The position numbers and the translations under genes are program-made. The notes beneath the pieces were generated by a model that saw nothing but the letters and a program-made list of their open reading frames with translations, was not told the DNA's origin and searched no databases. A DNA stretch of 64,000 bases from Anthracocystis setariae (Eukaryota; Basidiomycota; Ustilaginomycetes; Ustilaginales; Ustilaginaceae): contig CAKMXJ010000011.1 of the NCBI GenBank assembly GCA_928724745.1, forward strand, positions 586,233 through 650,232. The letters are read 5' to 3'. Shown one piece after another: positions 39,879 through 60,768 of the stretch. Numbering within the stretch: the first letter of the stretch is position 1; each line of letters begins with the position of its first letter.

Positions 39879-42284
39879 ATGGCAGACAAGCACAATACGG
39901 CGCCGAAGCTGGCATCTTCCCGGCCGTCCACTTTAACGACACCGGATCGACCAACAGCTAAGCAGCATCCATCCGCATTGACCACCAACATGCCGATCGC
40001 GTCAACCACCATGGAACAGCTTGCCACCCTTGATGCACATTCAGCGCTCGATGCACCGGACGAAGATGCCAAGATGGTGTCCCCCGATCATACTATCGCA
40101 CCTTCAAGTGCATCACAGCAACGGTACGGATTAGAATCACCGCTTGGTGCACACCATCCCTCTTCGCACTCCCACTCCCACTCCCATTCCCACTCCGAGC
40201 CTCAGCATCTCTCCAAGTGCAACTGCAAGTGCCAAAGCGCCGCGCTTCTCGCACGTCCCATCGAGGCCGAGACCTTGCCTCCCTTGACCATTCCCGATAG
40301 GCCGCACCACCAAACCAGTGAACCCAGCCCGCAACAGATGGGGTTTCTCAGCTCTCACCACTCTTCCCACACCCCAAGCTACAGCGATCTCTTCTTCGAT
40401 TTACTCTTCGCCGCTTGTCTCAACACTTACAGCAATGCTGTCAATCTCGCCGAATTCGCGCATATCGCTATCTTTCTTGGCTACTTTTTGGCTCTGTGGT
40501 GGGCTTGGTGGAGTCAGGCCTATTTTGACGTCCGCTATCGCCAACCCTCGCCTTTCTACCCCTTTTACTTCAAGATGTGCCAGCGTTTCATCCGTGTTGC
40601 TGTGCTCGGCATCTGGGTCGGTTTCTCCACCACCCCCTCCGAATTCTCTCGCGGCAGCTTTAGAAACTTTAGCATGATTTACGGCTGTTCTCGCATGGCG
40701 CTGGCACTCGACCATACCGTGGTGCTCGTCTTCGATCTTGGATTCTGGCACAGGCATCCCAATTCGCTACACGCTCAACAACTCGAAGTCGAGGATGACG
40801 CCCATGCCAACGAACCATCGCAACTGCTGCATGGAAAACAGCAAGTTCTCGACAGGTCGCAAAGGAACGCCATTATCGGGATCCATCTCGCATCGATCGC
40901 TGCCCTCGTCGTATCAGGCGTGCTCTGGATCTCTACCCGATTCATGGATCATACTGGTGTCTCTGGCTCGGTTCTCGCCTTGTGGTTCGTCGCCGTGGCC
41001 ATCGAGATGTCGGTTCAAATCCTCAGTGAACTCAGTGGCGTTCTTTCGACTTTGGGCGATAGCGTCTTGCCCGAGCGCCTCGTGCTTTTCGGTCTCATCA
41101 TCCTCGGCGAAGGCTTCACCGGAATCGCAGAGACCCTCAACAGAATGAGCCCGGGCGCCAAACAGGTTCTGGGCGGCGTCCGCATCGACAGCGGTGGCTG
41201 GAGCGGCGACACCATTCTTCAGGCAGTGAGCTGCGTGCTCATCGTTGTCCTCCAATTTAGCGGCTACTTTCACCGCGCTACCAGCCAAGTCCAGATGTCT
41301 TCGGTCTTGGTCGTCATTTGGGCTTACATCCATGTGATACTTCACATGTCCTCCGCTCTGCTCGTCGTTGGTCTCAAAAGAATCCTCGGTGCTGCAAACA
41401 CCGTCAATGCCATGTTTCGTTTTCTCACCAACGCAGATCTGTATTTGCCGGGCAACTCTGGCGACCAAACTTCAGGAGGCGATCAGGCTCATCCGGGATA
41501 TGATGTCGTCGGTAGTCTAACTCCCTTCACCGCCAACGAGACGGTCGCAGCCATTGCCTCGGTCTTTGCGGTGCTGCAAAGCAACGACGGTGCAAGCATC
41601 CCCACGATCACTCAAGCACAAGCGCTCATCGATTCTGTCGTCAGTCTTGTTGGTGGTATGAATCAGACACTCGACCTGGTTGCCCAATCCAACAGCACCG
41701 GAAACAGCGAGGCGGTGTCTTCGCGCTTCCCGCCCAGCTTGGTACTCCCCTTCAGGGCTTACTTTGAGCTTGCCGACAACGTGATCAACCCCAACTCGTT
41801 CGGCGGATACGTCGTCAAGTCCTTATTCCACTTTAAATACATCTACGCCGCAAGCGCCGTGTACCTGGCGGTCGACATCATCATCAAGTCCATGCAAACC
41901 TCTCGCGATCGTAAGCTGCGCTCGTTCCGCTGGTCGATGGCGTTTCGTTTTGCGTTTGCATCGATGCTGGCGGTGCTTCAGGTGGTGTTCACGTCGTTCA
42001 ATGGAGTACCTTCGGCTGCCGCCCTGAACGGAGCTCTCGCCATCTGTGCTGCGGTGCTGTTTGCAGAGCTCATCGCGCAGCAGATTGTCGATTACTACAA
42101 GCCACGTCTCAACCAGAGGCAATCCAGACTGCGCTTGCCCCGCTTCGGCAAGGCGGCGGACAACACGGGCGAATCGGCATCGTCGAGCCAAAAATCCGCA
42201 ACCTTGTCGCACAAGGATAGCGAAAAACATTTCGAGGCGCAGCCAAAGCTTCCGTCTCAAGATCACGAGCCAGAACATGTGTAG
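39879..42284 (+). CDS. LtrA-family (low temperature requirement A) multi-pass membrane protein
   Basis: The 801-aa protein has a hydrophilic N-terminus with a His/Ser repeat (HSHSHSHSHS, about residue 95) and then many hydrophobic helices. The motif SYSDLFFDLLFAACLNTY matches the ELFFDLxFVxxL signature of LtrA-family proteins, and LALWWAWWSQAYFDVRY is the following conserved block. The C-terminal half contains further helices and ends in a charged cytosolic tail. LtrA proteins are known from bacteria and fungi, but their biochemical role is unclear. The start CACCATGG at 39879 is in a strong context. No intron is required. This is the last intact core gene before the subtelomere. Confidence 0.82.
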   Translation: MADKHNTAPKLASSRPSTLTTPDRPTAKQHPSALTTNMPIASTTMEQLATLDAHSALDAPDEDAKMVSPDHTIAPSSASQQRYGLESPLGAHHPSSHSHSHSHSHSEPQHLSKCNCKCQSAALLARPIEAETLPPLTIPDRPHHQTSEPSPQQMGFLSSHHSSHTPSYSDLFFDLLFAACLNTYSNAVNLAEFAHIAIFLGYFLALWWAWWSQAYFDVRYRQPSPFYPFYFKMCQRFIRVAVLGIWVGFSTTPSEFSRGSFRNFSMIYGCSRMALALDHTVVLVFDLGFWHRHPNSLHAQQLEVEDDAHANEPSQLLHGKQQVLDRSQRNAIIGIHLASIAALVVSGVLWISTRFMDHTGVSGSVLALWFVAVAIEMSVQILSELSGVLSTLGDSVLPERLVLFGLIILGEGFTGIAETLNRMSPGAKQVLGGVRIDSGGWSGDTILQAVSCVLIVVLQFSGYFHRATSQVQMSSVLVVIWAYIHVILHMSSALLVVGLKRILGAANTVNAMFRFLTNADLYLPGNSGDQTSGGDQAHPGYDVVGSLTPFTANETVAAIASVFAVLQSNDGASIPTITQAQALIDSVVSLVGGMNQTLDLVAQSNSTGNSEAVSSRFPPSLVLPFRAYFELADNVINPNSFGGYVVKSLFHFKYIYAASAVYLAVDIIIKSMQTSRDRKLRSFRWSMAFRFAFASMLAVLQVVFTSFNGVPSAAALNGALAICAAVLFAELIAQQIVDYYKPRLNQRQSRLRLPRFGKAADNTGESASSSQKSATLSHKDSEKHFEAQPKLPSQDHEPEHV

Positions 42285-47537: not shown

Positions 47538-47562
47538 AGGGTTAGGGTTAGGGTTAGGGTTA
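47538..47562 (+). repeat. Interstitial telomeric tract 2
   Basis: About four AGGGTT units separate S1 copy b from module C. Confidence 0.95.
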
Positions 47563-48690
47563 CATAGGGGTATCCTTTGTGAGTTATGGTGATCATTTGG
47601 TACCGTTGGAAAGCTCTCATCCTGTAGATTGTGATCAGAAAATTTTGGCGAAATCGTTTGCATACTTTTTTGCGAAATTACGTAAACGTAGGTCCACGCG
47701 TACACTTTGGCTGGGGGCGTCGATGAGGAAGCAAAACCCTGGGGGTTTTTTTATGTCAGTTTGTGCAGTATATAGACAGACTTGGGAACACAAACACCAG
47801 GCACGGTGGCTGCACCGTAGCGGGCGTAGTTGATGTAAATGTACGTCTGCGCGTACATGTTGGCTGGTGGCGACAGTGAGCAAGCCAAACTTTGGGGGCT
47901 GCTTGGGGTCAGTGTGTGCACTATATGGGTACACTTTGTCATGCAAAGGCTTGGTGCAGTAGCTGCAGCGTAGGGGCCGCAGATGGGGAGTCAAGTTTGA
48001 CTCATGGAGGATCCCGAGCTTCCCGAGCTTCCCGAGCTATTCCGACGCATTCCGAGCTCCCCGAGGTGATTTTCCGAGTTTCCGTGTCGGAAAATTTTTT
48101 TGGTTTTTTGCAATGACAGATTGTGTTAATTGGCACAATCTAACAAATCTGGAAATGTCGGAAAATTTCCGCTTTTTTTTGCAATGCAGAACGTGTTACT
48201 CAACGCAATCTAACATGTTCAAGAACGTCCAAAATTCTCGCTTTTTTGCGGTGTCGGATTGTGTTGATGATGTTGATCGAACACATCCGGTGTCGCCAAA
48301 GAGCACTGAGAACGGCGTGTTTGGAAGATGAGGATGGTAGCTGCGTGCCTTGGCAAGCGAGCTTTTTTGAAGCGGGCAACGAAGCTTCTATGGCGGTCCT
48401 CTTGTGTGATGGCTTGCCTTAGGGTTGCATAGCAACATTTGAACTGCCAGCATACCGATCAAGACTTGGCTCGTGTTGCTGCATGGTCTGGCGAGGAAGG
48501 ATGGGAAAGAGAACAGAGCACAGGAAGATGGCTAGGGGCCACCTGTGACGAGTCGAGTTGACTATATACTTCCCCAAGGTTCCCGACCCTCGGAAATGGT
48601 CGGCAGGATCGGAAGGCACGGGAATGGCCACGGGAAGCACGGAAACGCGTTCCATATCCAGGGTCCAATTTCGGAATTTCGGAAATTCCA

Positions 48691-48984
48691 CGGGCAGGCA
48701 CGGGAGGCACGGGTAGCTTAGCCTGAGCACGGGAATGTGCTCGGAAGCCAGGGCTCAATTTGAAAATTTCAGAAATTCCACGGACAGGCACGGGAGGCAC
48801 GGGTAGCTTGGCCTGAGCACGGGAATGTGCTCGGAAGCCAGGGCTCAATTTGAAAATTTCAGAAATTCCACGGACAGGCACGGGAGGCACGGGTAGCTTG
48901 GCCTGAGCACGGGAATGTGCTCGGAAGCCAGGGCCCAGTTTGAAAATTTCAGACATTCCACGGGCAGGCACGGGAGGCACGGGG
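48691..48984 (+). repeat. 90-bp tandem array, three full units and a partial fourth
   Basis: Units start at 48691, 48781, 48871 and 48961 with C(G)GGCAGGCACGGG. The period of 90 bp is a multiple of three, so the reverse strand shows a 30-residue protein repeat that is probably not a gene. The last unit is interrupted at 48985-48993 by GGTTAGGGT, after which TAGCTTGG of the unit continues. Confidence 0.88.
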
Positions 48985-48993
48985 GGTTAGGGT
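48985..48993 (+). repeat. Telomeric micro-insertion inside a 90-bp unit
   Basis: The bases GGTTAGGGT interrupt the CACGGG-TAGCTTGG junction found intact in the other three units. No repeat sequence appears to be lost. Confidence 0.65.
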
Positions 48994-49091
48994 AGCTTGG
49001 TCTGACCATAGTAGCACCTCGGGAAGCACGGGACAACACGGTGTTGCCTCGGCAATGCGTCCGACTCGGATTTCACACAGAGGCAAAAACA

Positions 49092-49099
49092 TATAAATA
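49092..49099 (+). promoter_or_regulatory. TATA box of the module C gene X relative
   Basis: TATAAATA lies about 110 bp upstream of the ATG at 49210, comparable to the TATA boxes of the A and B copies. Confidence 0.55.
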
Positions 49100-49209
49100 C
49101 AGACCCATTTCATTTCAACCCTAACTCTAACGGAACCATCCATTCCGAGGTTACTGACCCCCTTATTCCGAACATCCCGAGCCTCCCGAGCCTCCCGAGC
49201 CTCCCGATC

Positions 49210-50585
49210 ATGCCAAAGCTACGGAAAAGTCCCCGATTCAAAGCCCGAGTCAAGGTAAGCTCAAACATCCCAAAGCTTGTTGTCACCAAACCCCGAAGGC
49301 CCCCGAAGAAGCGCAAGCCTCCGAAAAAATGTTCCGACCCACGGAATGTCCCCTCCGAATCACCCGAGCCCACCGAGCCCTCGGTTGTTGTGCTGATTCC
49401 CAACACCAAATTTCCGAGGTTACCGACCCCACCCGAGGAGCCTATCCCCGAGCCACCGGACAATCCGTATGACACCGACTATTCCGACCATCCCGAAGAG
49501 AATGAAGAGGAGGCCATGGAGGTTGCCGAGCATCCCGAGCATCTCGAGCATCCCGAGCATCCCGAGCATCCCGAGTGGACGGAAGGTGATGAAGAGGTGG
49601 TGACCGAAGCTCTACCAGCACCCGACCTACCCGATGCATCTAATCCACTTACCGAGCCTGGTGCCGAAATCCCGACCTTGGACAAGCTCGGGAAGGATGG
49701 TCCCGAGGATGTTGATGCTTGGAATATCACGGTATACCCCTCGGACCTGGCTCGGATCCACGGAAGAAGCATCACATTGGTTCGGTTGGTATCCCGAGCC
49801 CCGTACCCAATCATCCGAGACCACGGAATGTACCGAGACTGGGTGTACTTGGCCCAAGGGGTCGGGTACCTGAAGATTGAGCCTCGGTTCAAGTTTCCGA
49901 TGGTTCGGGCTCTGCAGCAGCACCTCAGTATACAACCAAACCAGTTCGGAATCGCATTTTCCGCGGGTTGCCCCACGGTAACCATCGGAATGCTCATTCA
50001 AGCACTCGGGAAGGTCGGATGTGACTCGGTGCGCATCCAGGCGTACGGAATGAAGCTTGCACTCTCGGGAGTGTACACGGAACCAGCCAATCCCGAGCAC
50101 CCGCTCTCGGGAACAAACTGATGGGACCTCGGGGTCAGCTATGACAGTGCAGACATATGGATGGTCGCATTCCGAACCCCGAACAAGCCAAACCGAAGCT
50201 TCCCGATGCTGACCCCCCTCGGGAGGGGCTTCGGAGGAGTAGACATGCAGCTCAGGCATCCCGAGGGGTACGGAATGCAGCTGAAGATCTACCCGAGGCT
50301 AGTTCATGCTCTCAAGGCATTCAACAGCAAGATGGCAAGGTCGGAACCTCGGAGCATGAAAACAGTTCGGAAAAGACTGACCTCGGTGCGTCGGTTGGTG
50401 GAAGATCTGGCTTCCGTGCCTCCCGAGATGCTCGGGGGGCTTCGGATGGAGGTCTCGGTTCGGGGTGCCACCCTTTCCGAGGCTGTGAAGTCAATCCAAG
50501 GCATCCCGTACCTTTCGCTTCCGACTTATATGCATGCCGAGCGACCGTGGTCCCGAGGCCTTCAGCTCCGACTCTATACAGTACG
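49210..50585 (+). pseudogene. Broken gene X relative in module C
   Basis: The protein is collinear with gene X of modules A and B: a basic Pro/Lys-rich N-terminus (PRRPPKKRKPPKK), an acidic segment with a repeated EHPEHPEHPE run, then the conserved core (EDVDAWNITVYP, IQPNQFGIAFSAGCPTVTIG, HPLSGTN). An in-frame TGA at 50119-50121 stands where A and B have ACG in NTWDLG. The frame continues with good similarity (FGGVDMQL, MARSEPRSM, SVPPEMLGGLRMEV) up to 50585, where telomeric repeats replace the last third including the zinc ribbon. It therefore has both a nonsense change and a terminal truncation. Confidence 0.82.
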
Positions 50586-50598
50586 AGGGTTAGGGTTA
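50586..50598 (+). repeat. Interstitial telomeric tract 4
   Basis: Two AGGGTT units cap the truncated gene in module C and lead into S1 copy c. Confidence 0.93.
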
Positions 50599-50728
50599 CA
50601 AGGGGGTCTGAATTACAAACAGGGTAGGGTTGCTTAATAAAAGTTGTTCATCTACCCAAAATAGGTATATTTGATTACTTAACCCTACGCAAGTTGCATA
50701 ATAAAATGTTGCTGTACGGCTCCGTCAA
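50596..50728. repeat. S1 copy c (133 bp)
   Basis: It has the fixed left boundary but is cut after CTCCGTCAA and joins copy d through only GT, without a full telomeric unit. Confidence 0.9.
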
Positions 50729-50730
50729 GT

Positions 50731-51098
50731 TTACAAGGGGGTCTGAATTACAAACAGGGTAGGGTTGCTTAATAAAAGTTGTTCATCTACCCAAAATAGG
50801 TATATTTGATTACTTAACCCTACGCAAGTTGCATAATAAAATGTTGCTGTACGGCTCCGTCAATATCGGCCCGACTCGACTCGGGTTGGCAAAAATTTCA
50901 CTTTTCAGGGACGCACCCATAGTAAACTATGGCTCAAATAGGCCCAAATGAACACCCTGAAACTCCCATGGAAGGGCGCAAAGTGGTTGTGGAGCTATGG
51001 CCAACTTGTCGTTTTTGGAGATTTTGGTCGAAGCTCCAAGGGTCCCCCCTTTGAAAGTGGGAAAATGGACCACCTCCAATCTCCACGCTAGCTTAATC
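50731..51098. repeat. S1 copy d (368 bp)
   Basis: It has the fixed left boundary and is cut after GCTTAATC, then capped by TTAGGG repeats. Confidence 0.92.
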
Positions 51099-51125: not shown

Positions 51126-51268
51126 CAAGGGGGTCTGAATTACAAACAGGGTAGGGTTGCTTAATAAAAGTTGTTCATCTACCCAAAATAGGTATATTTG
51201 ATTACTTAACCCTACGCAAGTTGCATAATAAAATGTTGCTGTACGGCTCCGTCAATATCGGCCCGACT
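51123..51268. repeat. S1 copy e (146 bp)
   Basis: It has the fixed left boundary and is cut within GGCCCGACT, then capped by telomeric repeats. Confidence 0.92.
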
Positions 51269-51288
51269 TAGGGTTAGGGTTAGGGTTA
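51268..51288 (+). repeat. Interstitial telomeric tract 6
   Basis: Three TTAGGG units form the left border of module A. Confidence 0.95.
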
Positions 51289-52107
51289 CACTTGGTTTCC
51301 CTTGTGAGTTATGATGATCTGATGGTACCGTTGGAAAGGTCTTTCAATATCCCGCATGTAAAAAAAATTTTGGACCGGCACTTGCACGCGTTACGGTGGA
51401 GGTACAGCAAATGTAGGTCTACGCGATGACTTTGGCAGGTGGCGATGATGAGGAACCATAACTCATCCACTTGCACCCTACAGGCAGGTGGAGGGGACCA
51501 TTTGACCAAGGCCATGCAAAATCTGGATGCTGTAGCGTGATTTGTTGATATATGAGAGGCCTCGGGAGTTTTCCATGGGCTCCGAAGCTCGGGAGACATG
51601 TGCGGGCAGTGCAGAGAGAGCCTCGGACGCGTCGGTAATTAAATTGAATATTCAGTTGGAGCTCGGCAACTGCCCGAAGGCTCTTGCAGCCTCGGGTGTT
51701 GTTACAGAAGTATGCCCGAAGCTCGGGAGGCTCGGAAGGATTGATGGTGAGACAAAGTTTTCTCTTGGCACTAGATGGAGTGTGCTCGGGCACAGGCAGA
51801 AAATGCCAGAAACCCTCGGGAGCTGGACATGTCTTCGGGCTCCTAAGCAGATTGGTCCGAAGGCTTCGGGCCATTTGCACGTGCTTCGGGTATACTTGTC
51901 CGGGTTCCGAGATGCCGACCCTGTCCGTGCCAGCCGAGAGATGTGCACATGGGGAATAAATAAATAATGAAGGAAATAAGTGGAAAAGAATAGAGGCACC
52001 AAAATCCATGCGGGAGCCTCGGTGGCTTCGGAGGCTGAAGAGATGAGCTTCGGGTCCTTCAGTATTCCTCGGGCACATTGATCATTTCCGAAGGTGGCTG
52101 CAAAAAG

Positions 52108-52116
52108 TATATATAA
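52108..52116 (+). promoter_or_regulatory. TATA box of gene X, module A
   Basis: TATATATAA lies about 70 bp upstream of the ATG at 52184, a good position for a core promoter. The identical element occurs in module B. Confidence 0.7.
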
Positions 52117-52183
52117 GAGCCGATGGTGCCGAGCCAGGGCCGTTGACCCCTGACTTGAAACCATCCCCACCAAACCAGCAGCA

Positions 52184-53971
52184 ATGATCCCGAAGCGCCG
52201 TCGAAGTACCCGAAGCACTGCAGCCCGCCCAAAGCCACCTCCGAAGAAGGTGCGCAAACCTCCGAAGAAACGTCAGCCTCCCCGAGCCCGCACACAAGGC
52301 CCGAGCAAGCCTGAGCTTGAGCCTGAGCTGGACTTGGTGGTGCTAATCCCGGGTCCCGAGTATCCGACCCCTCCCGAGGAGGAGCTAGCTGCACCCGAAG
52401 AGGATTTTCAAGACACCGACTATGCCGATGATCCCGAGGAAGATCTGGAGGAGCTGATGGAAGTTGCCGAACAAACCGAATGGACCGAGGGGGATGAGGA
52501 GGTGGTAGCTGATGCCAAAGCAGCGCCCGAAGCAGCAGTTGCAGAGCCCGCAGCAGCCGTACCCACGCCCGAGGAGCTCCGAAAAGACAAACCAGAGGAT
52601 GTGGATGCCTGGAATGTCACCGTATATCCCGAGGACTTGCTTCGGATCCACGGGCGTTCACTGACTCTGGTTCGGCTGGTCTCCCGAGCGCCGTTCCCCA
52701 TTGTCCGAGATGCAGAGATGTACCGAAGATGGATTTACCTTGCCGAAGGGTTCGGGTATCTCAAGGTGGAGCCTCGGTACAAGGAGCCGCTCATTCGGGC
52801 CTTTCAGCAGCACATGAACATTCAACCAAATGCCTTCGGGATTGCATTCTCTGCGGGCTGCCCTACGGTCACTCTTCGGATGCTGGTGGATGCTCTTCGG
52901 GAGGTAAGCTGTACCTCGGTGCGCATTCAGGCTTACGGTATGAAGCTTCCGCTGCTCGGGGTGTTTACGGAGCCAGGCAACCCAAAACATCCGCTCTCGG
53001 GAACCAACACGTGGGACCTCGGTGTCAATTATGACAGCTCGGACATCTGGATGGTCAGCTTCGGGAGGAAGCCCGACAAGCCGAACCGCCAATTTCCCAT
53101 GCTGACGCCCCTCGGGCAGGGGTTCGGCGGTGTGGACATGCAGCTCCGCACTCCGAAGGGCCTCGGGATCAAACTGAAGATCTACCCGAGGCTCGTGCAT
53201 GGTATCAAAGCCTTCAACAGCAAGATGGCGCGCTCGGAGCCCCAGAGCATGGCTACGGTCAAGAAGCGGTTCACCTCGGTACGTCGGCTGGTGGATGACT
53301 TGGCTTCAGTACCGCCCGAGATGCTCGGAGGTCTCCGAATGGAGGTGACCATGACTGCTCGGACACTCACCAAGGCTGCCGAAGAGCTTGCAGACCTCCC
53401 GTATCTGTCCCTCAGCACCTTCATTGATGCCGAGCTGCCGTGGGCCAAGCCTCTGCAGCTGCACCTGCTCACAGTGCAGGTCTCGGACATGCTTCGGAAT
53501 GCTCAGCACCTACACACGGTGGCTTCGGGCATCACGGTCATGAAGAAGCGCGGAGTCTCGGCACCAACAGAACTGGCAAAGAGAATTATCGGGGATCTCT
53601 TGAACAGTCTCGGCTGGAATACTGGTCTTCGGCAGCCCACTCGGTGGAACAACACCTTTGCCTGGTGGCTTCAGGATGATTCGGCAGCTCAGGTTATCAC
53701 CTCGGGACCAGCACGGATCACCATCCCCCCTTCAGTGGATGTTCGGCAGATGTGGGATCTTATTCGGCTCCACATTCCTTGCCGAGATTGCACAAACCCC
53801 AACAGTCGGTATCATTCGGTTGGCGGACGGAAAAGATGGGTCCTTCGGTGTTCCGAATGTGACCGAAGGTTAAATCGGAATGAGACAGTAGCTCATCTCA
53901 GCCACCTTCTCAGTTTCGGCACCTTCCCTGTGGATCTGGGACAGTTCGGCATCACTGTCATTCTCCCCTAG
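52184..53971 (+). CDS. Gene X: subtelomeric protein with C-terminal zinc ribbon, module A copy
   Basis: This 595-aa protein is not recognised. Residues 4-45 are very basic and proline-rich (KKVRKPPKKRQPPRAR), which looks like a nuclear localisation or DNA-contact region. Residues about 46-135 are acidic. A globular core follows (DVDAWNVTVYPEDLLRIHG, FGIAFSAGCPTVTLRML, FGGVDMQL, SVPPEMLGGLRMEV). The C-terminus has a zinc ribbon with CRDC (533-536) and CSEC (556-559), followed by LNRNETVAHLSHLL. A TATA box lies 70 bp upstream, and the frame has no stop. The coding DNA is full of TCGG/CCGA words phased at about 10.3 bp. Conservation of the frame between A and B (one amino-acid change, R to W) and similarity to module C suggest a real gene family. 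A DNA-associated role is inference. Confidence 0.78.
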   Translation: MIPKRRRSTRSTAARPKPPPKKVRKPPKKRQPPRARTQGPSKPELEPELDLVVLIPGPEYPTPPEEELAAPEEDFQDTDYADDPEEDLEELMEVAEQTEWTEGDEEVVADAKAAPEAAVAEPAAAVPTPEELRKDKPEDVDAWNVTVYPEDLLRIHGRSLTLVRLVSRAPFPIVRDAEMYRRWIYLAEGFGYLKVEPRYKEPLIRAFQQHMNIQPNAFGIAFSAGCPTVTLRMLVDALREVSCTSVRIQAYGMKLPLLGVFTEPGNPKHPLSGTNTWDLGVNYDSSDIWMVSFGRKPDKPNRQFPMLTPLGQGFGGVDMQLRTPKGLGIKLKIYPRLVHGIKAFNSKMARSEPQSMATVKKRFTSVRRLVDDLASVPPEMLGGLRMEVTMTARTLTKAAEELADLPYLSLSTFIDAELPWAKPLQLHLLTVQVSDMLRNAQHLHTVASGITVMKKRGVSAPTELAKRIIGDLLNSLGWNTGLRQPTRWNNTFAWWLQDDSAAQVITSGPARITIPPSVDVRQMWDLIRLHIPCRDCTNPNSRYHSVGGRKRWVLRCSECDRRLNRNETVAHLSHLLSFGTFPVDLGQFGITVILP

Positions 53972-54277
53972 CACTTTGGGTACCACTTTGGCAATCAGTA
54001 TATATTCTCGGCAGCAACACGGTCTTGATTTTTATCTTTCGGCAATCCCAAACTGGCTCGGGCACGCCCGAAGGCTCCTGTCAGCTTCGGGCATTGTGCA
54101 TGCATGCTCGGTCCACTTCGGGCATTGCGGCACGAACACAAAATTAATTACCCTGCCAATTTACATCTTCCTTCCCTACCACCACCATCCTCCACTCCAT
54201 TCCCGAGCTGTCCGAACCATTTCCAGTCCTGCCCGAAGCAGCCAACTGCTCCCAAACCACTTCAAAAATTTCCAACC

Positions 54278-54941
54278 ATGCCCGTAGTGACTCCGAAGTG
54301 CTACAAGTGCCACACTCAGGGTGCCGAATGCATTTTGCAAGATCCAAACAGTCCGAAGTGTAACCGATGCATTCAGCTCAGGAGCCGATGTAACCGAATG
54401 CAGAAAGGTAAGTTCCCGAATCAATTTAGTGGTTGCCGAAGATGCCGAGACTGACATCACAGTTTCCAAACCTTCAGTGCCAGACTTTGGTGATTCCGAG
54501 CTAGGCCGAATTCTCCGAGAGATTTACTTGGAGAAAAACAGGAAGGCCAATCCCAACCCAGATGCCGAATGGGTTCCTGTCAGCACCGAAGTCAGAATTC
54601 GGCAGGGCTTGGCATCCGAGAATCCCGAACTGGTCCAACAAACCATGGATTTTCTGTCTAAGCAGCCCGAACCTGGTCCGAGCAAAAAAAGGAAGGCAAA
54701 GGAAAACCCACTTTTCACAAACAAAGCCGAAGGGATGAAACTTTGCAAGGAGCTGCAGACTAACATTGCCGAACAGTCAAGCAAGCTTGCCGAACTTGTC
54801 CGTGCCATCAACAAGGATGTCCGAATCCACAATGCTGTAGCCGCACTGCACCAACTTGGTGCCAAGGAATATGGCAAGATTGACGAGCTTCCCGAACCAG
54901 GTGAGGATGATGCCGAAGTGGAGATTCAAGAAGGTGACTGA
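54278..54941 (+). CDS. Gene Y: small Zn2Cys6-type protein, two exons, module A copy
   Basis: Exon 1 is 54278-54407 and exon 2 is 54463-54941. A 55-nt intron (GTAAGT...CACAG) joins them in frame to give 202 aa. Residues 8-38 hold six cysteines spaced C-x2-C-x6-C-x9-C-x2-C-x6-C (C8, C11, C18, C28, C31, C38), the pattern of fungal Zn(II)2Cys6 clusters that usually bind CGG triplets. The first loop (HTQGAE) lacks the usual basic residues, while the second (IQLRSR) is basic. The rest contains a KKRKAKEN nuclear signal, a helical segment (LCKELQTNIAEQSSKLAELVRAI) and an acidic tail. It lies about 300 bp downstream of gene X on the same strand. A role as a DNA-binding partner of the module is inference; splicing is predicted only. 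Confidence 0.68.
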
Positions 54942-55254
54942 ACTCTCGGACTTGTTTCGGCCTTCAATATTATTGCACCTCAGCCGAATTGGCTAACATG
55001 TGTCCGATAATATGTCTCCTGGAAATATAATGTCCGAAATAACTTTTAGCTGGCCGAATGTGGTCTGACACCTGCCAAGCTAACAAATGTATTTTCTGAG
55101 AAAATATTTCCACCCCGAAAAATCATCTTGGTAGCCGAGCCATGAGTGTGACAGCCGAACTTGATGCTCGGGCACAGTGAGACTCATTATCCATGCCAAG
55201 CCATAAACTCGGGTACCCACTCTCAACTTTGGGCTTTTGAATTTACAAGTTGGA

Positions 55255-55540
55255 TGCCAAACAACAATCTTGAATGCCAAACAACAGTCTCGGATGCCGA
55301 ACATCAAGTTGGATTGCCAAATGACCACCTTGGCTGCCGAACATTAATTGTGGATGCCAAACATAGATCACAAATGCCGAACATCAGATTATTTTGCCAA
55401 ATTAGGATACATTTTGCCGAACACAGACCATATGTGCCAAACTTGTGCTGAAGTTGCCGAACCACAGCCACAGGTGCCAAACCTATGCTGAAGCTGCCAA
55501 ACCTCTGACCAAGTGTCCGAGGGGAACCAAGGGTGGCCGA
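55255..55540 (+). repeat. Exact 20-bp periodic array of TGCC(G/A)AA
   Basis: TGCCRAA starts at 55255, 55275, 55295 and every 20 bp up to 55495 (13 units). Two more related words (GTCCGA at 55515, GGCCGA at 55535) keep the phase. The 13 bases between words vary freely, so this is a spaced-motif array, not a plain tandem repeat. In seven or more units the G is A, as expected of CpG decay. Module B keeps only the first four units before its telomeric cap. Confidence 0.93.
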
Positions 55541-55594: not shown

Positions 55595-55603
55595 TTAGGG
55601 TTA
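55595..55603 (+). repeat. Interstitial telomeric unit 7
   Basis: A single TTAGGGTTA lies at the right end of module A, within T-rich DNA. Confidence 0.6.
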
Positions 55604-56261
55604 TTTTTTGGGTTCTAATGCTTAGGGTTAGGGTTCTAATGCTTATCCGGAGCTAGGCAGGGTTCTAATGCTTATCCCCAGCTAGGCAGCTCCGGAAGAC
55701 GGTCCATTTGAAAATTGGAAGACGCGTCTGTATTCAAATTTGAAGACGGTCCAATACAAATTAAGACGGTCTAATACAAATTAGAAATCGGTCAGGGTTC
55801 TAATGCTTATCCCCAGCTAGGCAGCTCTGGAAGACGGTCCATTTGAAAATTGGAAGACGCGTCTGTATTCAAATTGGAAGACGGTCCAATACAAATTAAG
55901 ACGGTCCAATACAAATTAAGACGGTCCAATACAAATTAAGACGGTCCAATACAAATTAGACCGGACGCGTCCAAAATTCCTGCTTTTTTCTGCTTGTTCT
56001 GAACGTGTCACAACACGTGTTCTAACACGTCCGGAGACGTCCGAAATTCCTGCTTTTTTCTGCTTGTTCAGAACGTGTCACAACACGTGTTCTAACATAG
56101 CTGGAGGCGTCCGAAATTCCTGCTTTTTTCTGCTTGTTCAGAACGTGTCACAACACGTGTTCTAACACGTCCGGAGACGTCCAAAATTCCTGCTTTTTTC
56201 TGCTTGTTCAGAACGTGTCACAACACGTGTTCTAACATGTCCGGAAGCGTCCGAAATTCCT
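55604..56261. repeat. S3 family modules a-d
   Basis: Four nested copies share the left boundary GGGTTCTAATGCTTATC: at about 55609 (cut after only TTCTAATGC), 55634 (cut after GCTAGGCAG), 55660 and 55793. Between them are short TTAGGG tracts (55622-55635) or direct joins. The longest copy includes 20-bp tandem units (GACGGTCCAATACAAATTAA) at about 55880-55960 and then a 70-bp satellite. Confidence 0.85.
55981..56260 (+). repeat. 70-bp satellite with CACGTG, array 1
   Basis: Four units start TGCTTTTTTCTGCTTGTTC at 55981, 56051, 56121 and 56191. Each contains GTGTCACAACACGTGTTC, with the palindromic E-box CACGTG, and an ACGTCCGGAGACGTCC-like part. Confidence 0.92.
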
Positions 56262-56278
56262 GGTTAGGGTTAAGGGTT
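56262..56278 (+). repeat. Interstitial telomeric tract 9
   Basis: GGTTAGGGTTAAGGGTT separates S3 modules d and e; one unit is imperfect. Confidence 0.85.
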
Positions 56279-56693
56279 CTAATGCTTATCCCCAGCTAGG
56301 CAGCTCTGGAAGACGGTCCATTTGAAAATTGGAAGACGCGTCTGTATTCAAATTGGAAGACGGTCCAATACAAATTAAGACGGTCCAATACAAATTAAGA
56401 CGGTCCAATACAAATTAAGACGGTCCAATACAAATTAGACCGGACGCGTCCAAAATTCCTGCTTTTTTCTGCTTGTTCTGAACGTGTCACAACACGTGTT
56501 CTAACACGTCCGGAGACGTCCGAAATTCCTGCTTTTTTCTGCTTGTTCAGAACGTGTCACAACACGTGTTCTAACATAGCTGGAGGCGTCCGAAATTCCT
56601 GCTTTTTTCTGCTTGTTCAGAACGTGTCACAACACGTGTTCTAACACGTCCGGAGACGTCCAAAATTCCTGCTTTTTTCTGCTTGTTCAGAAC
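56275..56693. repeat. S3 module e with 70-bp satellite array 2
   Basis: This near-identical copy of module d has satellite units starting at 56460, 56530, 56600 and 56670. It is cut after TTGTTCAGAAC and capped by telomeric repeats, whereas module d is cut at a different place. Confidence 0.92.

Positions 56694-56727
<34 letters not shown>
56694..56727 (+). repeat. Interstitial telomeric tract 10
   Basis: About five TTAGGG units, one with an extra T, form the left border of module B. Confidence 0.95.
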
Positions 56728-57546
56728 CACTTGGTTTCCCTTGTGAGTTATGATGATCTGATGGTACCGTTGGAAAGGTCTTTCAATATCCCGCATGTAA
56801 AAAAAATTTTGGACCGGCACTTGCACGCGTTACGGTGGAGGTACAGCAAATGTAGGTCTACGCGATGACTTTGGCAGGTGGCGATGATGAGGAACCATAA
56901 CTCATCCACTTGCACCCTACAGGCAGGTGGAGGGGACCATTTGACCAAGGCCATGCAAAATCTGGATGCTGTAGCGTGATTTGTTGATATATGAGAGGCC
57001 TCGGGAGTTTTCCATGGGCTCCGAAGCTCGGGAGACATGTGCGGGCAGTGCAGAGAGAGCCTTGGACGCGTCGGTAATTAAATTGAATATTCAGTTGGAG
57101 CTCGGCAACTGCCCGAAGGCTCTTGCAGCCTCGGGTGTTGTTACAGAAGTATGCCCGAAGCTCGGAAGGCTCGGAAGGATTGATGGTGAGACAAAGTTTT
57201 CTCTTGGCACTAGATGGAGTGTGCTCGGGCACAGGCGGAAAATGCCAGAAACCCTCGGGAGCTGGACATGTCTTCGGGCTCCTAAGCAGATTGGTCCGAA
57301 GGCTTCGGGCCATTTGCACGTGCTTCGGGTATACTTGTCCGGGTTCCGAGATGCCGACCCTGTCCGTGCCAGCCGAGAGATGTGCACATGGGGAATAAAT
57401 AAATAATGAAGGAAATAAGTGGAAAAGAATAGAGGCACCAAAATCCATGCGGGAGCCTCGGTGGCTTCGGAGGCTGAAGAGATGAGCTTCGGGTCCTTCA
57501 GTATTCCTCGGGCACATTGATCATTTCCGAAGGTGGCTGCAAAAAG

Positions 57547-57555
57547 TATATATAA
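57547..57555 (+). promoter_or_regulatory. TATA box of gene X, module B
   Basis: The same TATATATAA as in module A, about 70 bp upstream of the ATG at 57623. Confidence 0.7.
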
Positions 57556-57622
57556 GAGCCGATGGTGCCGAGCCAGGGCCGTTGACCCCTGACTTGAAAC
57601 CATCCCCACCAAACCAGCAGCA

Positions 57623-59410
57623 ATGATCCCGAAGCGCCGTCGAAGTACCCGAAGCACTGCAGCCCGCCCGAAGCCACCTCCGAAGAAGGTGCGCAAACCT
57701 CCGAAGAAACGTCAGCCTCCCCGAGCCCGCACACAAGGCCCGAGCAAGCCTGAGCTTGAGCCTGAGCTGGACTTGGTGGTGCTAATCCCGGGTCCCGAGT
57801 ATCCGACCCCTCCCGAGGAGGAGCTAGCTGCACCCGAAGAGGATTTTCAAGACACCGACTATGCCGATGATCCCGAGGAAGATCTGGAGGAGCTGATGGA
57901 AGTTGCCGAACAAACCGAATGGACCGAGGGGGATGAGGAGGTGGTAGCTGATGCCAAAGCAGCGCCCGAAGCAGCAGTTGCAGAGCCCGCAGCAGCCGTA
58001 CCCACGCCCGAGGAGCTCCGAAAAGACAAACCAGAGGATGTGGATGCCTGGAATGTCACCGTATATCCCGAGGACTTGCTTCGGATCCACGGGCGTTCAC
58101 TGACTCTGGTTCGGCTGGTCTCCCGAGCGCCGTTCCCCATTGTCCGAGATGCAGAGATGTACCGAAGATGGATTTACCTTGCCGAAGGGTTCGGGTATCT
58201 CAAGGTGGAGCCTCGGTACAAGGAGCCGCTCATTCGGGCCTTTCAGCAGCACATGAACATTCAACCAAATGCCTTCGGGATTGCATTCTCTGCAGGCTGC
58301 CCTACGGTCACTCTTCGGATGCTGGTGGATGCTCTTCGGGAGGTAAGCTGTACCTCGGTGCGCATTCAGGCTTACGGTATGAAGCTTCCGCTGCTCGGGG
58401 TGTTTACGGAGCCAGGCAACCCAAAACATCCGCTCTCGGGAACCAACACGTGGGACCTCGGTGTCAATTATGACAGCTCGGACATCTGGATGGTCAGCTT
58501 CGGGAGGAAGCCCGACAAGCCGAACCGCCAATTTCCCATGCTGACGCCCCTCGGGCAGGGGTTCGGCGGTGTGGACATGCAGCTCCGCACTCCGAAGGGC
58601 CTCGGGATCAAACTGAAGATCTACCCGAGGCTCGTGCATGGTATCAAAGCCTTCAACAGCAAGATGGCGCGCTCGGAGCCCCAGAGCATGGCTACGGTCA
58701 AGAAGCGGTTCACCTCGGTACGTCGGCTGGTGGATGACTTGGCTTCAGTACCGCCCGAGATGCTTGGAGGTCTCCGAATGGAGGTGACCATGACTGCTCG
58801 GACACTCACCAAGGCTGCCGAAGAGCTTGCAGACCTCCCGTATCTGTCCCTCAGCACCTTCATTGATGCCGAGCTGCCGTGGGCCAAGCCTCTGCAGCTG
58901 CACCTGCTCACAGTGCAGGTCTCGGACATGCTTCGGAATGCTCAGCACCTACACACGGTGGCTTCGGGCATCACGGTCATGAAGAAGCGCGGAGTCTCGG
59001 CACCAACAGAACTGGCAAAGAGAATTATTGGGGATCTCTTGAACAGTCTCGGCTGGAATACTGGTCTTCGGCAGCCCACTTGGTGGAACAACACCTTTGC
59101 CTGGTGGCTTCAGGATGATTCGGCAGCTCAGGTTATCACCTCGGGACCAGCACGGATCACCATCCCCCCTTCAGTGGATGTTCGGCAGATGTGGGATCTT
59201 ATTCGGCTCCACATTCCTTGCCGAGATTGCACAAACCCCAACAGTCGGTATCATTCGGTTGGCGGACGGAAAAGATGGGTCCTTCGGTGTTCCGAATGTG
59301 ACCGAAGGTTAAATCGGAATGAGACAGTAGCTCATCTCAGCCACCTTCTCAGTTTCGGCACCTTCCCTGTGGATCTGGGACAGTTCGGCATCACTGTCAT
59401 TCTCCCCTAG
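57623..59410 (+). CDS. Gene X, module B copy
   Basis: This 595-aa copy is identical to the module A protein except for one substitution: the sequence RQPTRWNN of A reads RQPTWWNN here, caused by CGG to TGG at 59081. The zinc ribbon cysteines at 533, 536, 556 and 559, the basic N-terminus and the TATA box are kept. The other nucleotide differences in the gene are silent, and all are CpG transitions. Whether both copies are transcribed is unknown, and product function is not recognised. Confidence 0.78.
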   Translation: MIPKRRRSTRSTAARPKPPPKKVRKPPKKRQPPRARTQGPSKPELEPELDLVVLIPGPEYPTPPEEELAAPEEDFQDTDYADDPEEDLEELMEVAEQTEWTEGDEEVVADAKAAPEAAVAEPAAAVPTPEELRKDKPEDVDAWNVTVYPEDLLRIHGRSLTLVRLVSRAPFPIVRDAEMYRRWIYLAEGFGYLKVEPRYKEPLIRAFQQHMNIQPNAFGIAFSAGCPTVTLRMLVDALREVSCTSVRIQAYGMKLPLLGVFTEPGNPKHPLSGTNTWDLGVNYDSSDIWMVSFGRKPDKPNRQFPMLTPLGQGFGGVDMQLRTPKGLGIKLKIYPRLVHGIKAFNSKMARSEPQSMATVKKRFTSVRRLVDDLASVPPEMLGGLRMEVTMTARTLTKAAEELADLPYLSLSTFIDAELPWAKPLQLHLLTVQVSDMLRNAQHLHTVASGITVMKKRGVSAPTELAKRIIGDLLNSLGWNTGLRQPTWWNNTFAWWLQDDSAAQVITSGPARITIPPSVDVRQMWDLIRLHIPCRDCTNPNSRYHSVGGRKRWVLRCSECDRRLNRNETVAHLSHLLSFGTFPVDLGQFGITVILP

Positions 59411-59716
59411 CACTTTGGGTACCACTTTGGCAATCAGTATATATTCTCGGCAGCAACACGGTCTTGATTTTTATCTTTCGGCAATCCCAAACTGGCTCGG
59501 GCACGCCCGAAGGCTCCTGTCAGCTTCGGGCATTGTGCATGCATGCTCGGTCCACTTCGGGCATTGCGGCACGAACACAAAATTAATTACCCTGCCAATT
59601 TACATCTTCCTTCCCTACCACCACCATCCTCCACTCCATTCCCGAGCTGTCCAAACCATTTCCAGTCCTGCCCGAAGCAGCCAACTGCTCCCAAACCACT
59701 TCAAAAATTTCCAACC

Positions 59717-60380
59717 ATGCCCGTAGTGACTCCGAAGTGCTACAAGTGCCACACTCAGGGTGCCAAATGCATTTTGCAAGATCCAAACAGTCCGAAGTGT
59801 AACCGATGCATTCAGCTCAGGAGCCGATGTAACCGAATGCAGAAAGGTAAGTTCCCGAATCAATTTAGTGGTTGCCGAAGATGCCGAGACTGACATCACA
59901 GTTTCCAAACCTTCAGTGCCAGACTTTGGTGATTCCGAGCTAGGCCGAATTCTCCGAGAGATTTACTTGGAGAAAAACAGGAAGGCCAATCCCAACCCAG
60001 ATGCCGAATGGGTTCCTGTCAGCACCGAAGTCAGAATTCGGCAGGGCTTGGCATCCGAGAATCCCGAACTGGTCCAACAAACCATGGATTTTCTGTCTAA
60101 GCAGCCCGAACCTGGTCCGAGCAAAAAAAGGAAGGCAAAGGAAAACCCACTTTTCACAAACAAAGCCGAAGGGATGAAACTTTGCAAGGAGCTGCAGACT
60201 AACATTGCCAAACAGTCAAGCAAGCTTGCCGAACTTGTCCGTGCCATCAACAAGGATGTCCGAATCCACAATGCTGTAGCCGCACTGCACCAACTTGGTG
60301 CCAAGGAATATGGCAAGATTGACGAGCTTCCCGAACCAGGTGAGGATGATGCCGAAGTGGAGATTCAAGAAGGTGACTGA
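59717..60380 (+). CDS. Gene Y, module B copy
   Basis: Exons 59717-59846 and 59902-60380 give 202 aa with the same six-cysteine cluster. Two changes from module A, both E to K by CpG transitions (59765 and 60210), alter HTQGAEC to HTQGAKC just before the third cysteine and IAEQ to IAKQ in the helix. The first adds a basic residue in the loop that contacts DNA in Gal4-type clusters. The gene is otherwise unchanged and retains the 55-nt intron. Confidence 0.67.
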
Positions 60381-60768
60381 ACTCTCGGACTTGTTTCGGC
60401 CTTCAATATTATTGCACCTCAGCCGAATTGGCTAACATGTGTCCGATAATATGTCTCCTGGAAATATAATGTCCGAAATAACTTTTAGCTGGCCGAATGT
60501 GGTCTGACACCTGCCAAGCTAACAAATGTATTTTCTGAGAAAATATTTCCACCCCGAAAAATCATCTTGGTAGCCGAGCCATGAGTGTGACAGCCGAACT
60601 TGATGCTCGGGCACAGTGAGACTCATTATCCATGCCAAGCCATAAACTCGGGTACCCACTCTCAACTTTGGGCTTTTGAATTTACAAGTTGGATGCCAAA
60701 CAACAATCTTGAATGCCAAACAACAGTCTCGGATGCCGAACATCAAGTTGGATTGCCAAATGACCACC

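Follow-up and report, generated by a model that had tools for sequence, protein, structure and literature searches.

The right end of contig C11 of Anthracocystis setariae (genome 21.47 Mb, 36 contigs) carries two copies of a mobile-looking element in which the words TCGG and CCGA recur at the pitch of the DNA helix. The analysed stretch, called the window, is the 64,000 nt from 586233 to 650232 of this contig, and positions given without a locus name are counted within it. Its right part consists of units bounded by TTAGGG repeats, namely a truncated unit, copy 1 of the element (modA) and copy 2. Each copy encodes a protein of 595 amino acids in its first open reading frame (ORF1), followed by a smaller companion gene with a predicted intron. 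In both copies the words lie on a lattice of about 10.25 bp, which extends from the non-coding 5' DNA across the two genes, predicted intron included.

An earlier note on this DNA had claimed that the words are phased to the helix independently of codon frame, and had listed positions for them. The 12 TCGG positions between 52753 and 53062 are all present and are every TCGG word in that stretch, the six CCGA positions between 52191 and 52302 are likewise all present, and four of the five positions in the 5' region are exact, while the fifth lies at 51836 instead of 51837. Word-to-word distances cluster at 9-10, 18-22, 29-31, 39-42, 50-52 and 60-63 bp, and the gaps between these clusters are empty or near-empty. 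The best Fourier period in 51289-55540 was 10.2, and such a peak was not found in the core genes at 4511-42284. The phasing that the note described is confirmed. For 96% of the 148 words in 51289-55249 the mean phase relative to neighbouring words was positive. The strand sense of the word switches in blocks, as the note had said, with 39 orientation runs against 74 ± 6 expected. No words occur in the first 270 bp or so of the element (51286-51561).

Each segment was compared with 200 rounds in which as many sites were placed at random. The phasing statistic was 6.9 in the 5' non-coding DNA (27 sites, 0/200 placements as high), 12.7 in the coding sequence of ORF1 (CDS1; 75 sites, 0/200), 4.0 in the intergenic segment (10 sites, 1/200), 8.6 in the companion gene with its intron (25 sites, 0/200) and 4.1 in the 3' array (8 sites, 0/200). 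The phase continues from the 5' region into the predicted intron, with its three CCGA words, and into the 3' array. A slightly wider word, [AT]CGG, gave a stronger lattice than TCGG alone, both in CDS1 of modA (15.3 vs 13.4) and in the coding sequence of the paralogous L042 family (8.9 vs 8.1). The CpG decay forms of the words, CTGA and CCAA, were in phase over the whole element.

Since the two genes carry most of their words in exons, the pattern might be a by-product of the protein sequence, for example of alpha-helix periodicity, or of codon usage. The statistic of 12.7 in CDS1 stands against a maximum of 6.2 over all 4-mers in 200 codon-preserving shuffles; a second run gave 13.4 vs 6.3 (0/200), and companion exon 2 gave 5.9 vs 5.1 (0/500). 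Loci with a minus-strand match (L004, L006, L010, L015, L026-L028) were left out of the first run. The shuffles leave protein and codon usage unchanged, and the signal is lost in them throughout (0/200, 0/300, 0/500), which refutes an alpha-helix or codon-usage cause. In addition, the words are spread over all three frames (19, 29 and 25 of 73), and the lattice runs on into non-coding DNA. We give the by-product explanation practically no chance.

All-word autocorrelation was used as a control on host genes. In 13 host ORFs of at least 300 amino acids the mean z was 0.7, with 12 ORFs at or below 2.4, while modA reached 8.8, copy 2 reached 8.1 and L042 reached 7.9, so a genome-wide property was rejected. 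TCGG/CCGA phasing was absent in the two host genes tested for that word. The host maximum, z 4.4 at 10.1 bp, was seen in an LtrA-like gene at 39879-42281.

A period of about 10.2 bp is also that of nucleosomal DNA, and the pattern could be a GC version of the periodic An/Tn clusters (PATCs) of nematodes, acting through rotational nucleosome positioning or intrinsic bending. The raw count of A/T dinucleotides (WW) had hinted at a weak counterphase, about 4 bp out of phase, but this was gone after correction for the placement of unmasked positions, and the phasing of both WW and G/C dinucleotides (SS) outside the words did not exceed that of random subsets. This makes a code of the nucleosome or An/Tn type unlikely. 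Moreover, the GC-rich words AGCC and CCCC sit in antiphase, the identity of the word is sharp and its orientation is block-wise. We consider positioning or bending improbable. The words are built on the CGG triplet and contain a CpG, and WW and SS are unphased; the data fit a lattice of binding sites for a protein that recognises CGG better than a code intrinsic to DNA shape. Of the second code that the note had proposed, the helix-phased words over the genes and their codon independence stand, limited to the element and its close relatives, while the likeness to the nematode A/T clusters comes down to the period of about 10 bp. A full-text literature search by word matching turned up no described equivalent of the pattern, which is no proof of absence.

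The words are conserved beyond what the protein explains. Between modA and the L042 family, which share 64% amino-acid identity, CCGA/TCGG was preserved at 45 of 73 aligned sites, compared with 383/1679 for other 4-mers and 85/280 for other CG-containing 4-mers. Third bases of same-amino-acid codons were preserved in 55/67 cases within words vs 127/291 outside, and in the reverse direction in 60/85 vs 122/273, so the words themselves look selected. CCGA was the top over-conserved 4-mer of this pair (z 6.1), and no word exceeded 3.7 in five other family pairs. The 26-27 modA words that are unshared with the L042 family were also in phase with the modA lattice (mean cosine 0.44-0.45 at 10.2-10.3 bp). 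This last result also bears on the idea that the whole unit, together with its genes, arose from an ancient tandem array and that the lattice is what is left of it. There is a 20-bp array at the end of the element, and related units bear arrays; against such a relic, the ORF1 of modA has no tandem amino-acid or DNA repeat, the unshared words are still phased, and decayed words would not be renewed. We regard this origin as very improbable.

The lattice is kept in DNA that loses CpG. The observed/expected ratio of CpG was 1.03 in the host core, 0.24 in modA outside the words and 0.15-0.45 in ten sister-family element stretches; it was not depleted in the L046 array (0.86), two mixed subtelomeric stretches (0.79 and 0.86) and the array at 55600-56690 (1.19). 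In modA, 155 of the 227 CpGs fall in words. Copies 1 and 2 are 99.7% identical across 4064 bp and differ at 11 of 4043 positions, of which 10 are CpG transitions and 8 lie in words; the rate of change at CpG positions is about 80-fold that at other positions (p = 2e-9). Word and non-word CpGs decayed at indistinguishable rates (8/151 vs 2/72, p = 0.51). In the L042 family, the L008 copy had lost 6 of 101 ORF words, five of them through CpG transition, and CpG transitions in words made up 7/11 differences in L005, 8/18 in L006 and 5/104 in the more diverged L003 (L004 and L042 are one and the same DNA, and L009 overlaps L008; either pair counts as a single copy). As CpG is depleted outside the words and the copies differ mainly by CpG transitions within them, the lattice persists against decay. 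The words decay fast and yet stay conserved between families, which is most simply explained by renewal through selection. The transitions are probably the outcome of methylation-driven deamination.

Two explanations turn on this decay. In the first, the lattice would be a mutational residue, in which the CpGs of CCGA/TCGG were spared by methylation or by its spacing and became periodic without function. The loss of CpG elsewhere in the element agrees with this, but the words are not spared, since they contain 8 of the 11 copy differences; the sister element L031, located in the same subtelomeres and low in CpG, did not retain CCGA (1 word vs 15.5 expected from shuffles); and third-base conservation is higher within the words than outside. 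We think this quite improbable. Simple survival of a methylation-refractory CpG context was rejected by the word loss in L031 together with the word hits between copies. In the second, a host factor would read the lattice, either a CGG-binding protein of the subtelomeres or a DNA methyltransferase working at helical period, for which the words would be favoured CpG substrates that stay stably methylated. This would fit the DNA_methylase matches at three genome loci, the CpG within the words and its transitions, and the telomere repeats adjoining the units. It is opposed by L031, which lives in the same subtelomeres without the word, and by the equal decay of word and non-word CpGs; we regard a host reader as rather unlikely. 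One of the DNA_methylase matches (G000:C22:426197-426604) is a 295-amino-acid frame at the very end of its contig, and it is possibly carried by a subtelomeric unit.

The element itself offers a candidate reader. Zn2Cys6 proteins follow the spacing rule CX2CX6CX5-12CX2CX6-8C, and the companions of modA, L003 and L009 have CX2CX6CX9CX2CX6C. Companion matches lie close to ORF1 matches in further copies with CGG words, on C36, C5, C19 and C15. This pairing of the two genes makes the companion, as far as its predicted sequence goes, the prime candidate reader of the words. The longest contig was 5198 bases for the ORF1 relative P0002 and likewise for a companion relative, which is consistent with both lying on one metagenome contig. 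Zn2Cys6 proteins bind CGG triplets. In fission yeast, the Pho7 footprint starts with TCGG, and binding is lost when its CG is altered (PMC5559640); the sites of Mca1 read TCGGCG (PMC6080790).

The explanation that we favour, with somewhat better than even confidence, is that the words form a one-face lattice bound by a protein that recognises CGG. This would most likely be the Zn2Cys6-pattern protein of the element itself, and its binding would probably serve self-recognition or anti-silencing. The words would be [AT]CGG half-sites of a sequence-specific DNA-binding protein, and the likely reader, the small companion protein, would attach to a single face of the helix at roughly every turn, in oriented blocks, and so cover the whole element, from promoter to tail and across its genes, perhaps cooperatively. 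By analogy with VANC and VANDAL (discussed below), the most likely benefit would be self-recognition, by which the element is kept accessible or expressed within CpG-depleted and probably methylated subtelomeric DNA; the next most likely would be that the words help the element to be copied, to move or to be maintained at the telomere side. We hold a fuller picture only tentatively, in which the genes of a subtelomeric mobile element were written around a one-face oriented lattice, the element's own zinc-cluster protein forms a helical filament that tells self from host and holds off methylation silencing, selection among copies restores the lattice more quickly than deamination of CpG wears it away, and every family comes to have a word and a reader of its own.

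Several results weigh against this binding lattice. The words unique to the L042 family are hardly phased (mean cosine 0.06-0.13), and its coding lattice is looser than that of modA (0.25 vs 0.55). Phasing is weak in the tail at 54945-55250 (11 sites, statistic 2.9, 12/200 random placements). Among the decay forms, CCAA lacks phasing in CDS1 and CTGA in the 3' part. Mild phasing is also seen for two variants that do not stem from decay, CGGA (11 sites) and ACGA (3 sites). In the more diverged pair L042/L003, CpG transitions make up just 20 of 104 differences, and a copia-like gene reached z 2.9 in one test. The Pfam score of the companion for Zn_clus (PF00172), 12.2 bits when spliced and 17.9 bits in the exon-1 frame, lies under the cut-off of 21, and the basic residues usual for the Zn2Cys6 class are missing from the first half of its cluster. 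Finally, in the coding-lattice search, 8 of 9 element ORFs of other families had z below 2.

Because of this last result, and because phased words in the other families lie mainly in non-coding DNA, a coding lattice is established solely for the CGG-word families. Upstream of L040, TTCYA/TRGAA words (TTCCA and TTCTA, within L040:8440-9130) form another helix-phased array at 10.15 bp over 351 bp of non-coding DNA, with 19 sites and a statistic of 6.25 (0/1000 random placements), for a word picked after inspection of the stretch. Phased arrays of about 20-21 bp lie upstream in L046. L044 is rich in AAGGT and GTAC words, and its coding autocorrelation (z 4.1-4.5) is suggestive of a lattice, although not above the best host gene (4.4); none was found in L027, its 61% relative (z 0.5). 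Generality across families is only partly supported, and family-specific words are plausible. L044 also encodes a small six-cysteine protein, CX2CX7CX12CX2CX6C (L044:7212-7552, + strand), in a sister element of another word family. Beside the sister element at L046, a 421-amino-acid ORF (L046:7174-8436, - strand) has a weak match to Tet_JBP oxygenase under the cut-off (E 0.029) and would be a candidate DNA-demethylating partner if the match is real. A search for the TET/JBP family gave no match in this genome, but none in the control genomes either, so its negative outcome carries no weight.

ORF1 has at least 76 matches in the genome, many of them close to contig ends. It had no Pfam match at E up to 1, and no relative was found among viral contigs. 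In metagenomes, a family profile recovered the same two proteins as the single-sequence search, both searches scoring only the roughly 8000 candidates that shared most words. No transposase was seen, and ORF1, being without a Pfam match, does not qualify as Mutator-type; in Pfam searches, with the other frames of the unit partly scanned, neither ORF1 nor the companion showed a reverse transcriptase or helicase domain. Of the ORF1 relatives scanned, four have a C-terminal OTU cysteine-protease domain (E 5.5e-8 to 9.9e-13), which the ORF1 in the window lacks. In the PDB, a profile search started from A1 hit OTU tails belonging to other families (best E 4.7e-5), plus a single weak non-OTU chain (E 0.93). 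A Copia-type reverse transcriptase ORF lies near a contig end at L042:689-1984 (+ strand; RVT_2, E 7.5e-40). Among tracts of at least two TTAGGG, counted on both strands of the window and 16 loci, 19 of 33 lead into TTACA, the common unit start, and 7 of 33 into TTCTA; these two recurrent junctions suggest that units are joined at telomere repeats. The DNA between units contains tandem arrays with 100% matches, a 135-bp unit repeated twice within 50596-50863 and a 479-bp unit repeated 1.9 times within 55794-56693. The coordinates of all features are given in Table 1.

Table 1 Features of the element copies and related units (window positions unless a locus is named)
Feature	Position	Strand	Basis or remark
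(TTAGGG)3 tract	51268..51285	+	Element begins directly after it, with TTACA
Copy 1 of the element (modA)	51286..55540	+	Right limit set by the last word and the T-rich stretch after it
Lattice of 156 TCGG/CCGA words at ~10.25 bp	51562..55540		Word positions, distances, shuffles
ORF1, 595 aa (P0001)	52184..53971	+	No Pfam match; contains 75 words
Companion gene, exon 1	54278..54407	+	Cysteine pattern CX2CX6CX9CX2CX6C; Pfam Zn_clus under cut-off
Companion gene, predicted intron (GT-AG)	54408..54462	+	Words at 54416, 54436, 54445; boundary predicted, four alternative acceptors likewise preserve the frame
Companion gene, exon 2	54463..54941	+	Reading-frame prediction
Terminal ~20-bp array	55250..55540	+	TGCCGAAC alternating with TGCCAAAC (word / CpG-to-CpA form)
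Copy 2 of the element, 99.7% identical, same lattice, 144 words	56725..60768	+	Comparison with copy 1
ORF1 of copy 2	57623..59410	+	Match to ORF1 of copy 1
Companion gene of copy 2, with intron	59717..60380	+	Match to companion of copy 1
Truncated related unit, L042 family, CGG words	47560..50590	+	ORF1 interrupted by one stop and cut off at telomere-repeat junction
OTU-bearing ORF1 relatives	L043:6358-8718, L040:5534-7891, L045:3823-5925, L044:3701-5698		Pfam

If the binding lattice is real, a helix-phased protein-binding second code would extend over about 4 kb of DNA, including coding DNA, where it would override synonymous codon choice and outlast fast CpG decay. The element would then offer a clean setting in which to study how selfish DNA labels itself from end to end, how transcription can pass an oriented coat of protein, and how words and their readers diverge in step; a single chromosome end contains the word, its putative reader and copies in decay.

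MoTeR elements have TTCGGG repeats. PATCs have a period of about 10 bp over long gene stretches, consist of non-coding A/T runs and can prevent silencing. MoTeRs are telomeric retrotransposons of Magnaporthe (PMC7367193), and like them and the telomere-linked helicases the present units are multi-copy and lie within telomere repeats at chromosome ends; unlike both, they showed no reverse transcriptase or RecQ helicase domain in ORF1 or the companion. PATCs were described in C. elegans germline genes (PMC7725773), and the present lattice likewise carries a ~10-bp period through long stretches of genes, but it is made of CGG words, lies also in coding DNA, is oriented block-wise and is without WW or SS phasing. 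With Pho7 and Mca1, the fission yeast Zn2Cys6 factors (PMC5559640, PMC6080790), the companion shares the cysteine spacing and the lattice shares the CGG triplet in TCGG context; those factors bind one or two sites in host-gene promoters, whereas here 156 words span the element that encodes the candidate protein. VANC proteins of the Arabidopsis VANDAL elements bind short family-specific motifs, tandemly repeated in non-coding parts of VANDAL, and lead to the loss of DNA methylation (PMC5735166, PMC10398659). Like VANDAL, the present element is multi-copy, encodes few proteins and repeats a short element-specific word many times (156 in copy 1), and related families have other words, here in the non-coding DNA of L040. 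Unlike the 9-bp, non-coding, tandem motifs of VANC, the word here is a 4-bp CGG word at helical pitch, without tandem repeats, and occurs also in coding DNA (75 in CDS1 and more in the companion); no protein relation and no transposase was seen. The element may thus act in a similar way without being a member of the VANC/VANDAL system. We rate the pattern as new in form, and its proposed function is likely a relative of VANC-type self-recognition.

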